Shown piece after piece: positions 22,227 to 54,387 of a DNA stretch of 64,000 nt. Location of the stretch: the IMG/VR virus record IMGVR_UViG_3300042319_002138, positions 1-64,000 of that record; one strand, given 5' to 3'. Under the pieces are notes generated by a model. That model was not told the origin of the DNA and made no database searches. It saw nothing but the letters and a program-made list of their open reading frames with translations. The stretch comes from a virus. The position numbers and the translations under genes are program-made. Position 1 is the stretch's first letter, and each line of letters begins with the position of its first letter.

Positions 22227-22258
22227 AAAGCCTCCCTATTTTAGGGGGGCTTTTTTTT
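22227..22258 (+). terminator. Intrinsic terminator
   Basis: AAAGCCTCCC / GGGGGGCTTT arms (one G-T pair) with a 7-base loop, then eight T. Ends the portal-holin unit before the glutamine synthetase gene. Confidence 0.85.
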
Positions 22259-22296
22259 ATGTTAAAAAATTAGTATAATTAAGAAAAAAATTATAT

Positions 22297-23376
22297 ATGA
22301 ATAAAATTTTATTAGAATACATTTGGTTGGATGGTAATCAACCACAACAATTACGGAGTAAAACAAAAGTAGTTTCTAAAGCTGATACATTAAAAGCGTC
22401 AGAGTACCCATTGTGGTCTTTTGACGGTAGCTCAACAAATCAAGCAGAAGCAGGTAAAGGTAAAAATACAGATTGTATACTTAAACCAGTTTTTGTAAAA
22501 CAAGACCCCTTTAGAGGTGGAAACCATTTATTGGTTTTTTGTGAGGTAATGAATCCTGATGGTACACCACATAAAAGTAATACTAGGTATAAATTAAGTC
22601 AGTTTATTTTGGAAAATAAAAACATTGAGAGTAATGTTTGGTTTGGTTGGGAACAAGAATATACGTTAACCCATAAACCATCAATGCCTTTTGGGGAAGG
22701 TGTAGGGTTACCTCTAGGTTTTACTAGTGACCTCTCTAGATTACCTAGACCACAGGGGGACTATTATTGTGGTATCGGTTCAGATACAGTTGTTGGTCGT
22801 AAAATTGTTGAGGAACACATGGAAAAATGTTTAGAAATAGGTTTAGAGGTTTCTGGTATTAATGCCGAAGTTCTTTTAGGTCAATGGGAGTATCAAATCG
22901 GACCTGTGGCACCATTAAATGGTTCAGACCAATTGTGGGTTTCTAGATATATTTTAGACCGTGTGGCAGAAGAAAACGATGTAAACGTATCTTTACACCC
23001 AAAACCACTAAAAGGTGATTGGAACGGTTCAGGATGTCATGTTAATTTTTCAACAAAAGAAATGCGTGAAGAAGGTGGTTTGAAGATAATTGAGGATACC
23101 ATGGAAAAACTCAAAAATAATCATGAAGAACACATTAAAGTTTATGGTTTACATAACAATGAAAGATTAAGTGGTGAACACGAAACATCTAGTATTCACG
23201 ATTTTAGTTATGGATATAGTACAAGAGACACAAGTATTAGAATTCCAGCTCAAGCAATAATTGACGGATGTGGTTATTTTGAAGATAGAAGACCGGCGTC
23301 AAATTGTGACCCTTATATGGTTTCTTTAAGAATGTTAGATACCGTGTATAACACAGTGGCAGAAACAATTCAATAA
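22297..23376 (+). CDS. Glutamine synthetase, type II (eukaryote-type)
   Basis: 359 residues, the length of GSII (not the ~470 of GSI or ~730 of GSIII). Signatures: beta-grasp WSFDGSSTNQAEAG (40-53), DPFR (70-73), metal/Glu site WFGWEQEYTL (115-124), NAEVLLGQWEYQIGP (189-203), PKPLKGDWNGSGCHVNFST (235-253), NNERLSGEHET (287-297) and RPASNCDPY (332-340). All catalytic positions I can check are present, so it should make glutamine from glutamate, ammonia and ATP in the cytoplasm. It lies between holin and prohead protease, has its own AT-rich leader without the ATATTTAT motif, and overlaps the next gene by one base. As a phage gene this is a striking auxiliary metabolic gene. Confidence 0.95.
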   Translation: MNKILLEYIWLDGNQPQQLRSKTKVVSKADTLKASEYPLWSFDGSSTNQAEAGKGKNTDCILKPVFVKQDPFRGGNHLLVFCEVMNPDGTPHKSNTRYKLSQFILENKNIESNVWFGWEQEYTLTHKPSMPFGEGVGLPLGFTSDLSRLPRPQGDYYCGIGSDTVVGRKIVEEHMEKCLEIGLEVSGINAEVLLGQWEYQIGPVAPLNGSDQLWVSRYILDRVAEENDVNVSLHPKPLKGDWNGSGCHVNFSTKEMREEGGLKIIEDTMEKLKNNHEEHIKVYGLHNNERLSGEHETSSIHDFSYGYSTRDTSIRIPAQAIIDGCGYFEDRRPASNCDPYMVSLRMLDTVYNTVAETIQ

Positions 23377-23813
23377 TGAAAAGAGGTAAAGAAATGAGAG
23401 TAGAAACCCCATACCAATATAACGTAATATCGGGTACAGTAGATAACAAAGAACCTAAATCTATTTATATCCAAATATCCGCGTGGGGAAAACCTAAAGA
23501 GTATGGTTTAGAAAATTACGATAATATCATTAAGAAAAAATCAAAAAGAGTAAAAAGTAAGTTGTTTGAAATTTTAAACGATACCGAATTCCACAAAACA
23601 AAATCAATAGTAGATTTTAATATGGCTTCATCAGGTATTAATTTTGATAAAAGAAGTTTTATGTCGGTTGAAATAACTTTATTTAAAAAAGAACCATTTT
23701 TACCTATAAATTCAGATGAGATGAAACCAATGATTGAGTCCATATCTCAAAAAATAATATCAGATGTCTTTGAAAAAGACGAAACTTTTGAATTTTATAA
23801 AACAAAAAAATAA
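23376..23813 (+). CDS. Hypothetical protein co-transcribed with glutamine synthetase
   Basis: 145 residues. Its ATG shares a base with the glutamine synthetase stop (TAATG), implying coupled translation and possibly linked roles. The sequence is alpha/beta with ISAWGKPKEYGLENY, KSKLFEILNDTEFHK and SFMSVEITLFKKEPF; no known family. An alternative Met at 23394 would shorten it by six residues. A terminator follows immediately. Confidence 0.6.
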   Translation: MKRGKEMRVETPYQYNVISGTVDNKEPKSIYIQISAWGKPKEYGLENYDNIIKKKSKRVKSKLFEILNDTEFHKTKSIVDFNMASSGINFDKRSFMSVEITLFKKEPFLPINSDEMKPMIESISQKIISDVFEKDETFEFYKTKK

Positions 23814-23816
23814 AAA

Positions 23817-23842
23817 GGAGGGGTAGTAACCCCTCTTTTTTT
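23817..23842 (+). terminator. Intrinsic terminator
   Basis: GAGGGG / CCCCTC with a 6-base loop and seven T; ends the glutamine synthetase operon. Confidence 0.85.
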
Positions 23843-23862
23843 GCTCCAAAGATTAATATAGC

Positions 23863-25876: not shown

Positions 25877-26305
25877 TTAATCTTGGTATTCTTTAGGTAA
25901 TCCCATTCTATCAGCTAATTTTTTAAATAAACCCGAATGTTCATCACTTTGTGGTAAATCTTCCCCAACGGACGCATGTATTAATTCATGTACTATAATC
26001 CATTTTAGATATTCCTTATCTTTTAAAGCCTTTTCTTTAATACCCATCTCTGCGTTTTCACCATTTTTAGGATGATTAAAACCAGCTATTTTCCCTTTTT
26101 TAATAGAGTTATCTATATTAATCTCTATGTTAGGTAGGGTTAATTCTTTGCCTGTTATCTCCCGATAAACATTTTTTAATTTTTTTTCTATAGAAGATTT
26201 TAAGAATTTGATTTCTTCTAAATCCCCATTTTTTTCTGTTAAATGAGGTTTTTCAATTCTTTCACTTAGAATTTGATTTACAATGTCGGACATAAGATAC
26301 TTCAT
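25877..26305 (-). CDS. SprT-like zinc metallopeptidase with targeting-like leader
   Basis: 142 residues. The C-terminal half has WIIVHELIHASVGEDLPQSD (HELIH at 106-110) and a third zinc ligand His123 in EHSGLFKKLADRMGLP, the arrangement of SprT-like zincin proteases. The N-terminus MKYLMSDIVNQILSER carries an LSE site (12-14), resembling the capsid-targeting-like leaders. If packaged and ejected with DNA, it could act early in the host cell, but that is inference. It is the only minus gene inside the head cluster and has its own promoter-like octamer. Confidence 0.75.
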   Translation of the reverse strand: MKYLMSDIVNQILSERIEKPHLTEKNGDLEEIKFLKSSIEKKLKNVYREITGKELTLPNIEINIDNSIKKGKIAGFNHPKNGENAEMGIKEKALKDKEYLKWIIVHELIHASVGEDLPQSDEHSGLFKKLADRMGLPKEYQD

Positions 26306-45329: not shown

Positions 45330-46265
45330 TTACTTCCTAATTTTATTATAGTTACCCTCAAACCATTCTATAGTTTCTTTTAAACCTTCATATAAAGGTG
45401 TGAATTTAAAATTTGGTAAATAATTTTTAATTTTACTATTGTCGCTTGGTTTTCTAAATTGTCCGTCTGGTTTTGAGGTATCCCATATAACCTCACCCTT
45501 AAAATTCATAATTTCAACAATTACGTCAACAATTTCTTTAATCGATATTTCTTCGGATGTCGATAAAATTATTGGTTCGTTTTCAGTGTAATTATTTAAA
45601 ACCCATTCAGATAAAATGGCAACATCTTTATTGTATATAAATTCCCTTAATGGTTTACCTGAACCCCATATAGTTAAAGGTGTTTTAGTTTCTCTAGCAA
45701 TATAACATTTATGTATTATGGAAGGAATTACATGTCCGTTTTCAATATCAAAATTATCATTTATACCATATATGTTTGTTGGTATAACTGATTTATAATT
45801 TAATCCATATTGTTCTTTGTAAGCTCTTATTTGAATGTCAGCCATTCTTTTAGAGTAAGCGTAAGCATCATTAGAAAAATGTGGTGGACCTAAATGTATT
45901 TTATTCTCTGTTAAGGGATACTCAACGTTGTCAGGAAAAACACATGTTGAAAGGAAAACAACTAAATCTTTTATGTTGTGTTTTCTACATGATTCAATAA
46001 CATTTGTATTTATCATGATGTTATCATAAAAAAATTCTCCCTTATATCTCATGTTTCCACCAACGCCACCTACTTTAGCTGCGGTATGGATAACCTTATC
46101 AACAACAAATTCTTTTTGTATTTCTTTATTTGTATAAAAAGAAAAAATTTCGTCAACAGATTTTTGGTCTCTTAAATCACAAACTTTAGAATTTAAGGCA
46201 ATTAAATTACCTTTAAACTGTGAACCCACCAAGCCACTTTGTCCTGTAACTAATAATCTACCCAT
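45330..46265 (-). CDS. fcl: GDP-L-fucose synthase
   Basis: 311 residues, family length about 310-320. Extended SDR features: NAD(P) site TGQSGLVGS (7-15), catalytic triad with Ser106-Thr107-Cys108 in FLSTCVFP and Tyr135/Lys139 in DAYAYSKR, and the substrate region HVIPSIIHKCY. It converts GDP-4-keto-6-deoxy-mannose to GDP-L-fucose (epimerase plus reductase). Start and stop overlap with gmd by one base, the usual gmd-fcl pairing, so the phage encodes the complete two-step route from GDP-mannose. Confidence 0.93.
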   Translation of the reverse strand: MGRLLVTGQSGLVGSQFKGNLIALNSKVCDLRDQKSVDEIFSFYTNKEIQKEFVVDKVIHTAAKVGGVGGNMRYKGEFFYDNIMINTNVIESCRKHNIKDLVVFLSTCVFPDNVEYPLTENKIHLGPPHFSNDAYAYSKRMADIQIRAYKEQYGLNYKSVIPTNIYGINDNFDIENGHVIPSIIHKCYIARETKTPLTIWGSGKPLREFIYNKDVAILSEWVLNNYTENEPIILSTSEEISIKEIVDVIVEIMNFKGEVIWDTSKPDGQFRKPSDNSKIKNYLPNFKFTPLYEGLKETIEWFEGNYNKIRK

Positions 46266-47320
46266 TAAACATTTCTATTTCTCATAATACCTAGCATTAC
46301 CTCTGATGGTATGTCTAATATATTTTGTTCTATTTCATTCTCTTCTACTTTATAATGTTCTAACCAATATTCAATCATTTCATCTAACATTGTCTCAAAA
46401 GTATATTTTGGGTCCCAATTTAACTCATCTCTTAACTTACTTGAATCCCCCTTTAAATCATGTAATTCTTCAGGTCTAAAATGTTTATCATCAATAACAA
46501 CATATTTTCTAAAATCCAAGTTTAATTTGGAAAATGTGTATTCACATAATTCTTTTACTGAATGTGAAACACCTGTAGAACATACATAATCATCTGGTTT
46601 ATCAGATTGTAACATTAACCACATAGCTTCTACATAATCTTTTGCGTGACCCCAATCTCTGGTAGCATCAAGATTACCTAAATGTAAATTATTTTGTAAT
46701 CCTAATTTAATTCTAACTGCAGCTTTAACAACTTTATTAGTTACAAAATTAGTTCCTCTTCTAGGGGACTCGTGATTAAATAATATACCGTTCCATATTT
46801 TCATACCATATGAATTTCTATAATTCTTACAAATGTTGTAAGAAAAAACTTTAGCACAACCATATGGTGATACAGGATTCAATGGTGTCGTTTCTCTTTG
46901 ATACCCATCATCGTCTATTGAATTACCAAACATTTCTGAAGATGATGCTTGATAAATTTTTGAATGTGGTGAAACCATCCTTACAGCTTCAAGTAAATTT
47001 AATGTACCTAAACCAGTAGCGTTAGCCGTGTATATTGGTTGGTCAAAACTAACTCTAACATGGGATTGTGCTGCTAGATTATATATTTCATCAGGTTGTA
47101 CTTTTTGTAAAACTCTAACTAAAGATGCCATATCAGTTAAATCAGCGTACTCTAAATTAATTTTACCTTCTGAGAGTAGGTGTTCTATTCTAGTAGATTG
47201 TGTTTCAGATACAGAATTTCTTTTTACGGTACCCCATATCTCATAATCTTTATTCAACAAAAATTCTGCTAAATAAGAACCGTCTTGTCCGTTAATACCC
47301 GTTATTAAAACTTTTTTCAT
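46265..47320 (-). CDS. gmd: GDP-mannose 4,6-dehydratase
   Basis: 351 residues, full length. Cofactor motif GINGQDGSYL (8-17), SSSEMFG (126-132) with catalytic Ser/Glu, Tyr153-x3-Lys157 in SPYGCAKV, and downstream FNHESPRRGTNFVTNKV and DATRDWGHAKDYVEAMW, which are diagnostic for Gmd. It makes GDP-4-keto-6-deoxy-D-mannose, the precursor of GDP-fucose and related sugars. It is followed by fcl and preceded by a fucosyltransferase gene in the same direction. Confidence 0.95.
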   Translation of the reverse strand: MKKVLITGINGQDGSYLAEFLLNKDYEIWGTVKRNSVSETQSTRIEHLLSEGKINLEYADLTDMASLVRVLQKVQPDEIYNLAAQSHVRVSFDQPIYTANATGLGTLNLLEAVRMVSPHSKIYQASSSEMFGNSIDDDGYQRETTPLNPVSPYGCAKVFSYNICKNYRNSYGMKIWNGILFNHESPRRGTNFVTNKVVKAAVRIKLGLQNNLHLGNLDATRDWGHAKDYVEAMWLMLQSDKPDDYVCSTGVSHSVKELCEYTFSKLNLDFRKYVVIDDKHFRPEELHDLKGDSSKLRDELNWDPKYTFETMLDEMIEYWLEHYKVEENEIEQNILDIPSEVMLGIMRNRNV

Positions 47321-47353
47321 TATTAATTTTTTGTGTTAATATATTTATTATTT

Positions 47354-48112
47354 TTAAAAATTCATTTTATTGTTTATTACGGATGTTAACCTATCCCAAA
47401 AACTCGTATAAATTAACGATAACTCAAAATTATTTTTAATAAAAGGTAACATGTTATTATATGTCTCAAGATTTAATTTTTCAATTATTCCCTTAAATTC
47501 ATCGACACTGTTAAACTCTAAAAAACCCCTCTTATCAAAATAATTACCAATATTACCACACCCCCAATATATTGGTACGGTTCCAGTAACTAAACAATCG
47601 ATTATTTTTTCTGTAAACAAATTATCTATTTTTTCATTTTCTATAATTAAAGAAAACATATAATCTTTAAATGCGGTAATTTTATTCTCAACTGGATTAT
47701 ATCCATGACCATAAGTGTCCATAGGGGTTAACTTACTATCAATTATTTTATGTCGAAGTTGATGTCCCTCAGTTTGACGTTTGTTGGAAGCTACAATTGA
47801 TAAAATTTTTGTTTTATCATGAATACCCCTATCAGATTCATTTATCCAACAAGAACCAAAAGGAAATAATTTACTATTTTCACATTCTTCTAATACTTTT
47901 GTATTCCAACTTAAAATTAAATCAAAATTATTTTTAAATGAGGGTATTTGGTTTACTATCCCCATGATAGAGGGTGGTTCTATTTGGACCATGACTTTAT
48001 AATCAGCATTTTCATCGTAATTAAAACTATCAAAAGAAATACTAACTTTTTTATTAAAATATAAATCGTTATGTAGAGTACCAAAAGTAGAAGCTTTTAT
48101 ATTATTTTCCAT
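47354..48112 (-). CDS. Fucosyltransferase, GT10-like (alpha-1,3/1,4 type)
   Basis: 252 residues. The donor-binding region of GT10 is evident: KDYMFSLIIENEKIDNLFTE (149-168), then KIIDCLVTGTVPIYWGCGNI, matching FSL.FENS...TEKI..ALL.GTVPIYWG. The basic residues before it (SNKRQTEGHQLRHKII) fit the acceptor/donor groove. It should use GDP-fucose, which the adjoining gmd and fcl genes supply. Linkage and acceptor cannot be read from sequence. Confidence 0.8.
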   Translation of the reverse strand: MENNIKASTFGTLHNDLYFNKKVSISFDSFNYDENADYKVMVQIEPPSIMGIVNQIPSFKNNFDLILSWNTKVLEECENSKLFPFGSCWINESDRGIHDKTKILSIVASNKRQTEGHQLRHKIIDSKLTPMDTYGHGYNPVENKITAFKDYMFSLIIENEKIDNLFTEKIIDCLVTGTVPIYWGCGNIGNYFDKRGFLEFNSVDEFKGIIEKLNLETYNNMLPFIKNNFELSLIYTSFWDRLTSVINNKMNF

Positions 48113-48127
48113 TTTTTTTACAAATGC

Positions 48128-48658
48128 CTATTTTATTGCTTGAATGTTTAAACTCATTAAAATACCATTCTCTTTATCCATATGAGGCATATATGCCTGT
48201 GAAAAATCATCAATATTAGAATGTTCCGATTCTCTCCAATCCCATATTTTGACATCAGTAAAACCAATTTGTTCTAAGTCTTCTTTTAAAGTGTTGTAAT
48301 CAAACCCAACATAATGATAATTGTGTTCATAACTTTGTCCACCATATAAAAACCCCATTAATTCTCTTAAAGAAGTACCATTTTTATATTGTAAAAAAAC
48401 TTTTTCTAAATCAGGTACAGATAGTTTTATAATTCCACCTTTTTTTAATATTTCATACCATCTTTTTAATACTGTGATATATTCATGTCTACTAAAATGT
48501 TCTAACACATGACAAGCATAGATTTCATCTGCACTAGATGGATTGAATTGTGAAAGTGTTTTTATATCATCAACTACGTCACAATCTAAATTTTCTCGTA
48601 TATCTATGTTTATATAATTTTTTATAATTTTTGTCCCGCAACCTAAGTGTAATTTCAT
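48128..48658 (-). CDS. Class I SAM-dependent methyltransferase
   Basis: 176 residues opening MKLHLGCGTKIIKNYINID, the glycine-rich SAM site in the methyltransferase_11 style, followed by ADEIYACHVLEHFSRHEY (motif with Leu-Glu-His), then LKKGGIIKLSVPDL. Such enzymes often methylate sugars or precursors in surface-glycan clusters. It sits within the glycosyltransferase island, 4 bases from the next gene. Confidence 0.8.
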   Translation of the reverse strand: MKLHLGCGTKIIKNYINIDIRENLDCDVVDDIKTLSQFNPSSADEIYACHVLEHFSRHEYITVLKRWYEILKKGGIIKLSVPDLEKVFLQYKNGTSLRELMGFLYGGQSYEHNYHYVGFDYNTLKEDLEQIGFTDVKIWDWRESEHSNIDDFSQAYMPHMDKENGILMSLNIQAIK

Positions 48659-48662
48659 ATTT

Positions 48663-49340
48663 TTAAGTATAATAATTGTGTGATTTTAATTGTCTATGTA
48701 TAGTTTCGTTTTCTTTAACTTCATACTGAATGTCGTTTAATAAGCAATACACGGTTAGATACCTTTCAAAATGGTGTGCAAAATAATTAGAATCATTATT
48801 ATCCAAATAAACAGGGTAAAACCATTCCATAAAATTTCTAAATGTTTCAGTTTTTATTAAGACATCCCCAATACTAAACCATTTGTCTTGTATAAATTTA
48901 TTATAATGTTTTTCTATTAAAAATTGTAGATTAAAACCTAATTTATTTTTTATATAATCATTAAATTTATGATGTTCTGGAAAACCAGTGTTAAAATAAA
49001 AATTAAAATTAAAACCCATAGATGATTTAATATCGTAACTAGTTTGATTATTAGGTGTTAAAATGTCAACATCGTAATCAATTAATCTAATGTAATCTGA
49101 ATTTAAAGATGTGTTTTTAAATATGGAATACCACCCACAGTATTGTAAACAATGCTTATTGTTTTCTATATTATCAGATAAATTTCTAGATATAATTACA
49201 TTCTCTAGACCTTCAATTTTGTCAACCTCATTAAAACCTAAAAAAACAAAATAATGTTTACCTAAACAGTCATACCTAGTATTTTCAATACTATTCAAAA
49301 TAAAGTTTTGGTCGTGGCAAAATATGTATGTAGTAACCAT
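48663..49340 (-). CDS. Glycosyltransferase-like protein (tentative)
   Basis: 225 residues. It starts MVTTYIFCHDQNFILNSIEN and has a possible GT-A metal motif DYIRLIDYDVDILTP, with an acceptor-side FSIGDVLIKTETFRNFMEWF and ERYLTVYCLLNDIQYEV. The overall order resembles capsular or LPS glycosyltransferases of the DUF type, but no family is certain. It adjoins the methyltransferase-like gene without a gap. Confidence 0.5.
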   Translation of the reverse strand: MVTTYIFCHDQNFILNSIENTRYDCLGKHYFVFLGFNEVDKIEGLENVIISRNLSDNIENNKHCLQYCGWYSIFKNTSLNSDYIRLIDYDVDILTPNNQTSYDIKSSMGFNFNFYFNTGFPEHHKFNDYIKNKLGFNLQFLIEKHYNKFIQDKWFSIGDVLIKTETFRNFMEWFYPVYLDNNDSNYFAHHFERYLTVYCLLNDIQYEVKENETIHRQLKSHNYYT

Positions 49341-49967
49341 TTAAATATTAATAAATTTTTTATTATTTAATTTTTGTGTGTGAACATTATGTGGTAGTTT
49401 AACGTTATTAGCATCAAAAACCGATGGTAATACATTAATGTACTTATTATCCACAAATATTAAATTTGTAAAATCAGTTTCAGCGTATAAATAATAACCT
49501 TTTTCTTCTCCTAAATTTTTTAAACATGTTAAAGATGCACTATAAGCATAAGTTTCATCCCAAACATGGTTTTCATCATATTCCAACGCTACAGATTCTT
49601 CGTGTGAAAAATTTGAGTTATACTCTATAATGACTACGGATGGTTTATATGTCAATTCTTTCCAAACCCAATAATCATTACCATCGATATCTATAGATAG
49701 TAAATCTAAATTTTCAGGTACTTCATATTTTTTTAATAAAAAGTTTATATTGTCTTTTGTTATAAACTCATTTTTTACATTACCTTGTGGGTTTGATATA
49801 CCTTCCATTTGTAACCCATTCCACCCAATGTCTAAAAACATTCTAATATTAGATAACCAATAACCGTCACCTGCACCAAATTCTACAGCGTACTTGCTAT
49901 TGACACCTATTTTTTCAAAAATACTATGTAGTATTTTACTTTCCCCATTTTGTGAATAATCTGTCAT
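49341..49967 (-). CDS. Methyltransferase-fold protein, FkbM-related (tentative)
   Basis: 208 residues. MTDYSQNGESKILHSIFEKI then KYAVEFGAGDGYWLSNIRMF resembles the SAM motif of FkbM-like enzymes, followed by LDLLSIDIDGNDYWVWKELT where FkbM proteins carry their second acidic motif, and PSVVIIEYNS. It is likely a sugar- or glycan-modifying methyltransferase or a binding homologue. Part of the same tightly packed island. Confidence 0.6.
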   Translation of the reverse strand: MTDYSQNGESKILHSIFEKIGVNSKYAVEFGAGDGYWLSNIRMFLDIGWNGLQMEGISNPQGNVKNEFITKDNINFLLKKYEVPENLDLLSIDIDGNDYWVWKELTYKPSVVIIEYNSNFSHEESVALEYDENHVWDETYAYSASLTCLKNLGEEKGYYLYAETDFTNLIFVDNKYINVLPSVFDANNVKLPHNVHTQKLNNKKFINI

Positions 49968-49997
49968 ATTTAATTTTTTAATTGTTTATTATTATTA

Positions 49998-50594
49998 TTA
50001 TTTTTTATTATTAATAAAAAGAGCGTTACCCCAATTACTGTTTTCGGGGTATATTGAATCAAGTTCAAAAGAGTATTGTTTAACATAATTCTCTATTTTA
50101 TCTAAATTACTACAATCTTCATATAATTCTGAATTTATATATTCGACATATATGTAATCTAATTTTTTTAAAAAATCACCAAAGCCTTTTAATACTTGAA
50201 TTTCATAACCTTGTGTATCTGAAACTAACACATTAAAATTATTAATATCAATACCCAAAGAATCAAATCTTTTTATTTCAACACTTTCAGTATGATTAAA
50301 TTGTATAGAAGTAAATTGTGATAAATGATTTAAAGGTTTAAGAAAAGATGATGACTCACCGTTATTTGAGGCGATATTTATATTTTTTATCTCATCCCTA
50401 TCACCTAAAGCAAAATTATAACAAATAAAATCTGGGTTATTTTTTGTTAATAAATTGAACACATCTTTTATGGGTTCAAAACACATAACATTATTTGTAT
50501 ATTTTCTAAATAAACTAGACTCTTGGCCTGTATTAGCACCTACCTGTATTATACCCCTTATTTCTTTAATTTTCTCCAATACTTCGATTTCCAT
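49998..50594 (-). CDS. FkbM-family methyltransferase
   Basis: 198 residues with the FkbM layout: IIQVGANTGQESSLFRKYTN (SAM site), MCFEPIKDVFNLL (acidic Glu after strand 2), NFALGDRDEI, IKRFDSLGIDINNFNVLVSD followed by TQGYEIQVLKGFGDFLKKLD. These enzymes O-methylate sugars or polyketides, typically in surface polysaccharide clusters. It lies between the second methyltransferase-like gene and the GT11 gene. Confidence 0.83.
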   Translation of the reverse strand: MEIEVLEKIKEIRGIIQVGANTGQESSLFRKYTNNVMCFEPIKDVFNLLTKNNPDFICYNFALGDRDEIKNINIASNNGESSSFLKPLNHLSQFTSIQFNHTESVEIKRFDSLGIDINNFNVLVSDTQGYEIQVLKGFGDFLKKLDYIYVEYINSELYEDCSNLDKIENYVKQYSFELDSIYPENSNWGNALFINNKK

Positions 50595-50656
50595 TTTTAT
50601 AATATATAAAAATTTTAGTTAAATTAAAGTCTAACTAATTTTTATTTTTTACATTT

Positions 50657-51415
50657 CTAACACCATTCATTCGGTATTAAATCATGAGTATTGTGGTTTA
50701 TTGCCTTACCGAACCAATTTTTTGGTGTTATAACCATTTTGTTAGGGTTTGTGTTTAACCATGCACCCCACCATGAAAAAGATGAATTAGCTATTATATT
50801 ATTTTTACATAGACTCATTAACCATAAATCGATATAGTCTTTTTCGCCCTCAATAAAAATAAATTGTGGTCCTTTAAAATTTTTTTTACACCATTCTATG
50901 TCGTTTGAAAAAACTAAAAAAATTGTTTTTTTATCAAAATTAGAAATAGCTTGATTATAATATTCGATACTACAAATTGGGTGGTGTTCTGGTAATCCTA
51001 AATAATCACCTCTTCTAATATGAATTGAACAGGTTTTTTCGTTTAAAAATTTACCATATTTTTCATATATTTCTTCTTTAGATTTTTCATCTATCGCATA
51101 TAAATTTAATATTTGTTCACGATTATGTAAAAAATATTTTTCACTTTGAAAGTATCCGTACAACTTTAAATTTGTTGTGTACGGTATTTTAGAATAATGA
51201 AAAAAAGGTTCTTGGTAAGTTTTATTACAATTTGTAATACCGAATTTTACGAATCTAAAAATATTTTCAGTGTAAGAATTTATTGGTTGGTGAGCATTTG
51301 AAGCTTGGGTTACTTCGAATACGGATTCGTCATTATTATCTAAAGACAATGAATAAGTTGTAGCTATTTGGAACATCTTGTTACCTAACCCACCTATTAA
51401 GTTACACGTTATCAT
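50657..51415 (-). CDS. Alpha-1,2-fucosyltransferase, GT11
   Basis: 252 residues. GT11 motifs are complete: IGGLGNKMFQ (7-16), HIRRGDY (132-138; the HxRRxD signature for GDP-fucose binding), and IIANSSFSWWGAWL (207-220). It transfers L-fucose in alpha-1,2 linkage to a galactose or related acceptor. With gmd and fcl 4 kb away in the same unit, donor and transferase are encoded together. It overlaps the next GT2 gene by 14 bases. Confidence 0.9.
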   Translation of the reverse strand: MITCNLIGGLGNKMFQIATTYSLSLDNNDESVFEVTQASNAHQPINSYTENIFRFVKFGITNCNKTYQEPFFHYSKIPYTTNLKLYGYFQSEKYFLHNREQILNLYAIDEKSKEEIYEKYGKFLNEKTCSIHIRRGDYLGLPEHHPICSIEYYNQAISNFDKKTIFLVFSNDIEWCKKNFKGPQFIFIEGEKDYIDLWLMSLCKNNIIANSSFSWWGAWLNTNPNKMVITPKNWFGKAINHNTHDLIPNEWC

Positions 51416-52094
51416 TATATTTTTGTTTTACGTAATCTATTTCTTCATTTATATTTTTATTGTATCTACTACTAATTTGAAATTGGTGTATTCTATTACT
51501 TATTAAAATATCACTAACTACCTGTGGTAAACCATATTTTTTATATAAATGGTAATAATACTCACAATCCATTAACATTGTTAAATTCTCATCAAAAAAA
51601 ACAATTTCTTCATTAATAAAGGAAAGTACTGAAGGTGAACTAATTGTGTTAACACCATACAATATTTGGTCATTCCAAGAAGGTACCATTTCCCTGTTAA
51701 AAGTAAGACCATCATTTGTGTGATTACAACCATTAACTAACCATTTACAGTTGGTTTCTTTAAATGTATTGTGTATTATTTGTAATGCGTTATCGTCCAC
51801 AAATAGGTCATCCTGGAACATTACTTTTATAATTTCCCCATCAGCATTTTTTATGGCTATATTTGTATTAGCAGGACCATTGCCTCGGTCATACTCATTT
51901 TTAATATAAACAATATCAAAAAATATATTATAAGATTCTACAAGTTTTTTGATTCCATCATCTACACTATGGTCAGAAATAATAACGTTAAAATTTTTAA
52001 AACTTTGTGTTTTTATAGAATTTAATAAAGCCTTTAAATAATGCAGACCATTACCATACTGTTCCCAAGTGGGTATGCAAATACTTATTTTCAT
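51402..52094 (-). CDS. Glycosyltransferase, GT2
   Basis: 230 residues from the ATG at 52094, which overlaps the upstream stop as ATGA (a longer frame to 52106 is less likely). MKISICIPTWEQYGNGLHYL opens the GT-A fold; VIISDHSVDDG, then FQDDLFVDDNALQII (DxD-like region) and MDCEYYYHLYKKYGLP follow. Inverting GT2 enzyme of unknown donor; part of the island. Confidence 0.82.
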   Translation of the reverse strand: MKISICIPTWEQYGNGLHYLKALLNSIKTQSFKNFNVIISDHSVDDGIKKLVESYNIFFDIVYIKNEYDRGNGPANTNIAIKNADGEIIKVMFQDDLFVDDNALQIIHNTFKETNCKWLVNGCNHTNDGLTFNREMVPSWNDQILYGVNTISSPSVLSFINEEIVFFDENLTMLMDCEYYYHLYKKYGLPQVVSDILISNRIHQFQISSRYNKNINEEIDYVKQKYNDNV

Positions 52095-52849
52095 ACCCAA
52101 CGCCAAGTTTTAATATGATTAGTTAATTGTTCTCTATTCATATTTCTTATTTTATGGAATTCTTGCCCATTAGAATGAAAAAGTGGGTTACTATCAGAAC
52201 TATTGTGTGTCCTACTATGGGTTAAATGATAAAGAGGACCCTCAACTCTACATAAACTATAACCCATAATTTCTATACGTACAACTCTTTCCCAATCTTC
52301 ATGACCCCATGAAACAAAATTTTCATTTTCTAAACCAATTTGTGAGTATCTTTCTTTGTTAAAGAAAAAAGCTCCACCAACAGAATTAGGGTTAAATAGA
52401 GTACACTGACTTAAATCAATGTCTTGAATATTATCAGAATCAACTAAATGGAATTGATTTTTTTGTACGTCATAGAATTTTCCTGAGTAAGGGAATACCA
52501 TATCACAACCTTCTAAAATTTTATTTCTAGATTCTAGGTATTGGTCAACTGTGAAAATAACATCAACATCATAGTTAACAACAATGTTTGTTTCACACAT
52601 TTTAGTCATATCATTCAACAATCTTGTTCTATGAAAAAGTCTTTCATCGTTTTTTTCAAAAACATATTTTATTTTATCTGAAACTGATTTTACAAATTCT
52701 TCATTAGAATTTTCATCACTTTCTAATACTATAATATTAGTATCAAAGTTCCTTAATAAAAAACTTATTGAAGTTTTAAAATTATCTCTTCTATCCTGTG
52801 AATCAAATCTAACAGGAACAATAAATGTAACGTCTTTAAAATCTATCAT
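52091..52849 (-). CDS. Glycosyltransferase, GT-A, GT7/GT2-like
   Basis: 252 residues. Opens VTFIVPVRFDSQDRRDNFKT; metal motif NIVVNYDVDVIF (DxD); the C-terminal NFVSWGHEDWERVVRIEIMG is the (F/W)-x-W-G-x-E-D-x-(D/E)-x-x-x-R motif of galactosyl/GalNAc transferases of the GT7 C-terminal type, followed by a His-rich tail. Adds a hexose or hexosamine, probably building the acceptor that the fucosyltransferases decorate (inference). Confidence 0.8.
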   Translation of the reverse strand: MIDFKDVTFIVPVRFDSQDRRDNFKTSISFLLRNFDTNIIVLESDENSNEEFVKSVSDKIKYVFEKNDERLFHRTRLLNDMTKMCETNIVVNYDVDVIFTVDQYLESRNKILEGCDMVFPYSGKFYDVQKNQFHLVDSDNIQDIDLSQCTLFNPNSVGGAFFFNKERYSQIGLENENFVSWGHEDWERVVRIEIMGYSLCRVEGPLYHLTHSRTHNSSDSNPLFHSNGQEFHKIRNMNREQLTNHIKTWRWV

Positions 52850-54387
52850 CCTCTATTTTGATATATTGCTTGTAATTGTTGTTGTACCTGTTCTGGTGTT
52901 GCTAAAGGTGTTTCTGTGGGTGTAATCCCATGTTTATTTTTGTACCACATAGTACCTTTTCTAAAATTCTCATTCCATGTTGGTGTTCTAGCAATAGTAC
53001 TTTCAGCTATTGAGTTCGGTATATCAGTTAAGTAATTCCAACTTTCATGAATATCGGCAAAATACCAAAAAGCTGGGTGATACATTTTTTTAATAGCTTG
53101 GTATGTGTGTTCAACATGTTCCCACGCGTTTTTAAACATTGGGTCAAAACCACCGATATCTTCTAATACTTTTCTTTGGTAATAAGAAAATGCCCCAACA
53201 CAATTAGGGTACAATGCTATTTTTACACCCGTATTTAATACATCACCATTTTCATAAGGGATAATCATCCTAGGGTTAGGTTTACCATCTACATCCTCTC
53301 TTTCAGATAAATCTGTAAATCCCTTACTACCAATCTTATTAGCTGGTCCGTGTAAAGCAAAATTTAAATGTTTAATACCAGAAATTAATGAGTGTTTAAT
53401 ATATTCTTTAAAAACATTTTCATCTTTAATTAAGATATCATCTTCCATAATAAAAATATGTTCACAACCTTTTTCCATTAGATAATTAATAGCTGTTGTT
53501 TTTGCTGCACCTACAGACATATTTGTTTTATGCTGTATGATATGTGCATCTTCAGGGTAAGCGTCTTCAGGGTAAGGTGTACCGTCATTTACAATAACAA
53601 AATTCTTAACCCATTTTGGAACTGTAAAAGCACTTTGCCTAATTCTATGTTCAGCATTATAAGTAACCATACCAAAACCAATAGAATCAGGGTCAAACTC
53701 TAACTTTTCTTCAAAAGTTTTATTATTTGATAGTCTTACAGGTAAGTTATCTTTATATCTTTCTTCAAATTTAATTTTATTATCTTCCCATTGTTGATTG
53801 GTCATACCTACTGATAAATGGGTTACTCTAATTAAAGTCGTTAAACCAATTTTAACACCATCTAAATAATTAGGGAAACAAAAAGCTAAATCATAAAAAT
53901 GGAATCCATCAAAAGATTCGTCAAAAGTATGTTTAATTTTTGTTTTATCTATAGCAAAAAACAAACCATCTAAAACAACCATTTCAGTAATTTTATTACC
54001 CTGGTCTTTAGAATAATAGTTAGTCCATTTTTTACCTTCGTGTTGGTGTGATACAATACCATTCATAGATTCTTTCAAAGTCCACCATCTACCGTCTAAT
54101 AAATCTGTTGTACCAGCTATCCCTAAAATTCCATATTCAGGATTTTTATTAAATAGTTTTTGTAGTTTTTGGCCCCAACCCTTAGTTTCAAAAATTAAAT
54201 CATCGTGACAAAAAACAACTATATTATTTTTAGCCATATCTAATCCTTTATTATAAGCTTGTGGTAATGACATTTCACCATCATTAACAATTTGTATAAC
54301 ATCTACGTTATGAATACCACAAGTTTTTTTAATTTGTTCGATATACTCAGGGTTATCTTTTCTTGTTGAATATACTACTGTAATCAT
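52846..54387 (-). CDS. Two-domain glycosyltransferase
   Basis: 513 residues with two GT-A units. Domain 1 (1-215): MITVVYSTRKDNPEYIEQIK, SLPQAYNKGLDMAKNNIVVF, CHDDLIFETKGWG. Domain 2 (about 240-490): IGFGMVTYNAEHRIRQSAFT, FVIVNDGTPYP, IFIMEDDILIKDENVFKEYI. Domain 1 resembles the DUF4422/LpsA-like type and domain 2 resembles GT2. A single protein able to catalyse two sugar additions, or one donor and one recognition domain, is possible. It overlaps both neighbours by 4 bases. Confidence 0.78.
   Translation of the reverse strand: MITVVYSTRKDNPEYIEQIKKTCGIHNVDVIQIVNDGEMSLPQAYNKGLDMAKNNIVVFCHDDLIFETKGWGQKLQKLFNKNPEYGILGIAGTTDLLDGRWWTLKESMNGIVSHQHEGKKWTNYYSKDQGNKITEMVVLDGLFFAIDKTKIKHTFDESFDGFHFYDLAFCFPNYLDGVKIGLTTLIRVTHLSVGMTNQQWEDNKIKFEERYKDNLPVRLSNNKTFEEKLEFDPDSIGFGMVTYNAEHRIRQSAFTVPKWVKNFVIVNDGTPYPEDAYPEDAHIIQHKTNMSVGAAKTTAINYLMEKGCEHIFIMEDDILIKDENVFKEYIKHSLISGIKHLNFALHGPANKIGSKGFTDLSEREDVDGKPNPRMIIPYENGDVLNTGVKIALYPNCVGAFSYYQRKVLEDIGGFDPMFKNAWEHVEHTYQAIKKMYHPAFWYFADIHESWNYLTDIPNSIAESTIARTPTWNENFRKGTMWYKNKHGITPTETPLATPEQVQQQLQAIYQNRG

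Follow-up and report, generated by a model that had tools for sequence, protein, structure and literature searches.

The closest described systems are the moraphages, T4-like jumbo phages from aquatic habitats whose hosts are predicted to be Bacteroidota; their published description reports a glutamine synthetase (GS) in 9 of 25 genomes and a DnaK in 8 of 25 (Perez-Hernandez et al. 2025, PMC12619734). A jumbo-phage survey also lists glnA (PMC13037316), and the virus-assigned sequences of the GOS metagenomes include type II glutamine synthetases (GSII), which cluster with Mimivirus and the eukaryotic enzymes in the tree of that study (Yooseph et al. 2007, PMC1821046). Because a moraphage GS has already been reported, the core observation, that such jumbo phages encode a GS, is essentially known; the type of the enzyme, its tree, its genomic slot and fossils of the gene are not given in the accessible part of that article. 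In the literature that we searched, which comprised papers outside subscription, we found no report of a phage-only clade, a fixed slot, fossils of the gene, its transfer between lineages or a neighbouring gene that is independent of it.

The locus studied here lies in a stretch of 64,000 nucleotides (the window) within a record of 226,303 bp from a T4-like jumbo phage that probably infects Bacteroidota. The record carries the features by which moraphages are delimited, namely T4-type structural genes, PolB, PhoH, Clp ATPase, dUTPase and a size of 200-307 kb; its genes for PolB, PhoH, Clp and dUTPase were identified from a reading of the sequence. It also shares with them several glycosyltransferase-like genes and, among the moraphage-type chaperones, DnaJ, while DnaK was not found in the record. 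Overall, the phage resembles the moraphage lineage. A separate cluster on the minus strand (window 45330-54387), assigned by eye, reads as genes for a GDP-mannose dehydratase, a GDP-fucose synthase, and methyltransferase-like and glycosyltransferase-like proteins, and probably serves to glycosylate the virion or DNA.

An open reading frame of 359 aa, running from ATG to TAA at 22297-23376 on the plus strand, encodes a full-length GSII and is the only GS counted in the record. The protein exceeded the gathering scores of both Pfam domains (Gln-synt_N and Gln-synt_C), matched the NCBIfam GlnII model (NF041605; 418 bits, E 2e-125) without reaching its equivalog cut-off of 500 bits, and scored 358 bits against yeast GS with phmmer. 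Its PDB matches were the yeast, Streptomyces, plant and human GSII (E 1e-91 to 1e-105). An AlphaFold model of the single chain (pLDDT 84, pTM 0.88) gave TM-scores of 0.82-0.90 against solved GSII structures, with an E-value of 3e-41 for Streptomyces 4bax. Length, with a beta-grasp and a catalytic domain, and overall homology are those of a GSII, and so are the residues of the metal, glutamate, ATP and ammonium sites. Twelve catalytic and metal-binding positions (E119, E121, E191, E198, H248, E329, D43, R290, E296, R310, R315, R331), scored in 25 phage proteins and a 24-row alignment of phage and cellular sequences, were invariant; mapped to maize GS1a, they correspond to what we take to be the plant residues that bind metal, ATP, glutamate and ammonium. 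The window GS agrees in fold, order of domains and residues of the active site with the bacterial and eukaryotic enzymes (Streptomyces 4bax, yeast 3fky), which are 44-50% identical to it, whereas about 10-20 additional residues past the EQEYTL motif set the window GS apart. As judged from sequence and predicted fold, the window GS is a complete and probably active enzyme. This agrees with the initial annotation, which had described a complete GSII with all signature motifs, although its term "eukaryote-type" holds only in its older usage, since the protein groups with bacterial and phage GSII.

The gene is located between a holin (Phage_holin_4_1, PF05105; 21643-22197) and a prohead core serine protease of the T4 gp21 type (PF03420; 23887-24654), both on the plus strand and identified by Pfam matches. 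Directly downstream, the gene for a 145-residue protein (P145; 23376-23813, plus strand) shares one base with the stop codon of GS (TAATG). Only 100 bp separate holin and GS, and this interval holds an intrinsic terminator with a 12-pair stem and a T tail (22227-22253, plus strand) followed by a promoter-like element, TTAGTATAATTAA (22270-22282, plus strand), that ends 14 bp ahead of the GS start codon. Past P145, a terminator-like GC hairpin with a T run was read in the sequence at about 23815-23843 on the plus strand, the same stem being reported by a scan on the minus strand. Flanking genes, terminators on both sides and the TAATG overlap were all as the initial annotation had placed them. 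A GC hairpin with a T run 5' of GS is also present in most relatives, and an element like TTAGTATAATTAA is recognisable in most of them at a similar spot. Genome-wide, the promoter-like element gave 14 upstream hits against 4.8 expected, and it was dropped as a timing signal because AT-rich upstream regions inflate this count and the genes behind it are a mixed set (PolB and others); the T4 late-promoter octamer TATAAATA was likewise not informative, with 26 found and 18 expected. In many GS-free relatives the holin is followed by another small membrane protein (about 95-100 aa; e.g. L087:7560-7856), which the window does not have. A SprT-like metalloprotease (PF10263) is encoded at window 25877-26305 on the minus strand, opposite to the head cluster in which it lies.

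A search of IMG/VR by six exact peptide patterns, which yields a lower bound, found at least 341 contigs encoding relatives of the window GS. Among named phages, matches close to full length came from LR756502, LR745206 and LR756501, genomes of 642, 634 and 735 kb (Al-Shayeb et al. 2020, PMC7162821); the main text of that paper nowhere uses the word glutamine. Both LR756502 and LR745206 carry a GS of the window's clade (69-71% identical to the window's) at a different location in the genome, while the GS of LR756501 is 50% identical, lies closer to the Bacteroidota enzymes and seems to have been acquired separately. Two genomic contexts were observed. In the window's own lineage (context A) GS always occupies one slot, in the order portal, 266-aa protein, usually holin, GS, P145, prohead protease and, later, major capsid protein. 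In other, distantly related large phages, including those of 634 and 642 kb (context B), the gene has a different but likewise conserved surrounding, in the order portal, head-closure endonuclease, GS, late-sigma-like, sheath-stabiliser-like and clamp loader genes. GS of context B is 69-75% identical to the window's, but the prohead protease near it, where found, is only 22-27% identical, and this disparity indicates that GS was transferred between phage lineages.

Phylogenies support a phage-owned group. In a 92-row tree the window GS fell in a phage-only clade of 31 rows (SH-aLRT 99), and a 49-row tree recovered a phage-only clade of 33 rows with support of 100/99. Within the latter, context B formed a single clade nested among context A rows, and the grouping of context B with the window's group had support of 99/96. 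Transfer from A to B is likely rather than shown, because an AU test did not reject a monophyletic group A (p 0.255). When the best Bacteroidota hits were added, a 21-row phage clade remained intact with support of 100/100 and stood apart from the Bacteroidota enzymes on a long branch. The window GS is 59-82% identical to those of the other phages in its clade. Its closest cellular counterpart was 55% identical among the matches listed for GTDB contigs and 58% identical across Bacteroidota genomes (396 from the phylum and 398 from one order holding Allomuricauda, overlapping sets of about 790 in total); because these sets are samples and the GTDB figure refers to matches listed, a nearer cellular relative may exist. 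A second kind of phage GSII, in LR756501 (L106), L188, L206, L218 and L219, is 64-81% identical to Bacteroidota enzymes, and those of LR756501, L188, L206 and L219 interleave with Bacteroidota enzymes in the 92-row tree, which suggests several separate, later captures.

The ratio dN/dS of GS was 0.057-0.27 in 12 pairs, values that place the gene under purifying selection. Presence of the gene is nevertheless patchy. Using the prohead protease as an anchor, we gathered 80 loci irrespective of GS and found it in 29, under a permissive criterion that counts the remnant in L340 as present. On a tree of protease and P145 from 61 distinct loci, the 23 rows with an intact GS all fell in one inner clade, and presence and absence required 8 changes. 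Decayed remnants were found in the GS slot just 5' of P145 in two loci, L100 (1892-2100) and L340 (7289-7411). The L100 fossil retains both ends of GS with about 300 codons deleted; its matches to GS residues 1-36 (E 0.015) and 335-357 (E 0.003) are weak singly, but are in order and in place. The L340 fossil is a GS C-terminus (E 1.7e-8) with the otherwise invariant EDRRP decayed to GDIRP, and because this remnant sits in an outer clade it suggests that GS either predates the inner clade or was gained independently in the outer one. A GS-free relative of 380 kb contained no GS anywhere in its record, the other GS-free records being short fragments. GS has been lost repeatedly, and is for that reason regarded as dispensable in many relatives. 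Comparison of the window with a near-identical phage (L004) showed about 86% DNA identity at 22400-22800, in the N-terminal half of GS, between flanking bins of 97-100%; this dip indicates an intragenic exchange of alleles. Similar dips were observed in the capsid and HNH regions.

P145 was modeled with good confidence (pLDDT 87), but a fold search of the PDB returned nothing below E 0.001, and the one fold relative in BFVD was an uncharacterised myovirus protein (A0A8S5L9A5, TM 0.81). No P145 was found in named phages by tblastn. T4 gp68 has the same position and length with no sequence homology, and identity with this prohead core protein was rejected (hhalign probability 0.4%, no shared PHROG hit).

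The initial annotation had proposed that P145 regulates or modifies the synthetase as its partner in a two-gene unit. Their TAATG overlap, the bounding terminators that they have in common and the presence of P145 next after GS in all context A loci with GS would fit this proposal, which is nonetheless highly improbable and already largely refuted: P145 immediately precedes the prohead protease in all 80 relatives examined, 51 of which have no GS, and the GS of context B phages has no P145 match beside it. A check of co-occurrence between P145 and phage GS therefore spoke against a partnership. Since it is present independently of GS, P145 is an ordinary head-cluster gene beside which GS was inserted. 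We give still less credence to the idea that this isolate recently captured the GSII of a Bacteroidota host. GSII is common in Bacteroidota, and the Bacteroidota-like copies in LR756501, L188, L206 and L219 demonstrate that captures happen, but the window GS is closer to the phages of its clade than to any cellular sequence found (at most about 58%), and the 100/100 phage-only clade is not nested among the Bacteroidota enzymes with which it was analysed. Related copies in at least 340 IMG/VR contigs exclude a capture unique to this isolate, the outcome that the initial annotation had named as fatal to its proposal.

Two further explanations concern what the protein does. GS folds also make other gamma-glutamyl amides, and a ligase for another amine or acid could account for a score short of the GlnII equivalog cut-off and for an insertion at residues 125-150 that is missing in the cellular GSII aligned. 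We consider this unlikely, with every active-site position checked invariant between the phage and cellular enzymes and a score of only 33 bits against the gamma-glutamylputrescine synthetase model, the alternative ligase. A repurposed GS with a late or virion-linked role, either packaged or moonlighting in head assembly, would explain why both lineages keep the gene in structural or late surroundings, with head genes around it in the window's lineage and, in context B, genes of the portal, head-closure, late-sigma and sheath-stabiliser types. Phage metabolic genes often sit among structural genes, however, and the full conservation of the catalytic residues, together with the separate terminator and promoter-like element of GS, makes such a role very unlikely.

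We therefore favor, with a probability of about 0.75, a working GSII that is owned by the phage lineage, was acquired in the distant past and later underwent losses and transfer, and would provide an unregulated source of glutamine in infection. This reading is based on the full length of the enzyme, its conserved active site, purifying selection, the fixed slot, the repeated absence of the gene together with its fossils, and the phage-only clade. A T4-like jumbo phage lineage would have acquired GS long ago, probably once, by insertion at a fixed slot with lysis genes on one side and P145 and the prohead protease on the other, where a terminator and a promoter-like element of its own would serve it. 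Many later losses would have followed, as well as a transfer to a second lineage of huge phages. During infection, GS would make glutamine from glutamate and ammonium at the expense of ATP. Adenylylation of the GSI type is not known to act on GSII, and the phage enzyme could for this reason hold glutamine high when host nitrogen control would lower it. We infer catalysis, timing and the benefit to the phage, as we do the direction of transfer.

The glutamine would feed purine, pyrimidine and protein synthesis by host rather than phage enzymes, because the glutamine-consuming families sought in the record (class I GATase, GATase_7 and asparagine synthase) are absent from it. The record also has no thymidylate synthase and only a weak match to ribonucleotide reductase. 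Of the roles suggested in the initial annotation, that of an auxiliary metabolic gene, presumably active in infection, is supported by a complete, predicted-active GSII in a phage setting with many phage relatives, and a contribution to nucleotide synthesis is plausible. The suggested link to sugar-nucleotide pathways is weak, as GDP-mannose dehydratase and GDP-fucose synthase do not, to our knowledge, use glutamine and the record holds none of the amidotransferases or asparagine synthases tested.

Glutamine supply is at the center of nucleotide and protein synthesis, yet phage GS is usually just listed as an annotation. We lean towards viewing the window GS as a member of a phage gene family, a deep phage-owned branch of GSII that lacks a close counterpart in cells and would have been long kept by giant phages of Bacteroidota, exchanged between distantly related lineages of jumbo phages, allelically swapped and repeatedly lost, instead of being captured from hosts again and again. 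Purifying selection, a fixed slot, repeated losses and an inter-lineage jump within a single clade owned by phages offer a comparative system, in which the hosts, habitats and nitrogen status of sister phages with GS and with GS fossils can be set side by side.
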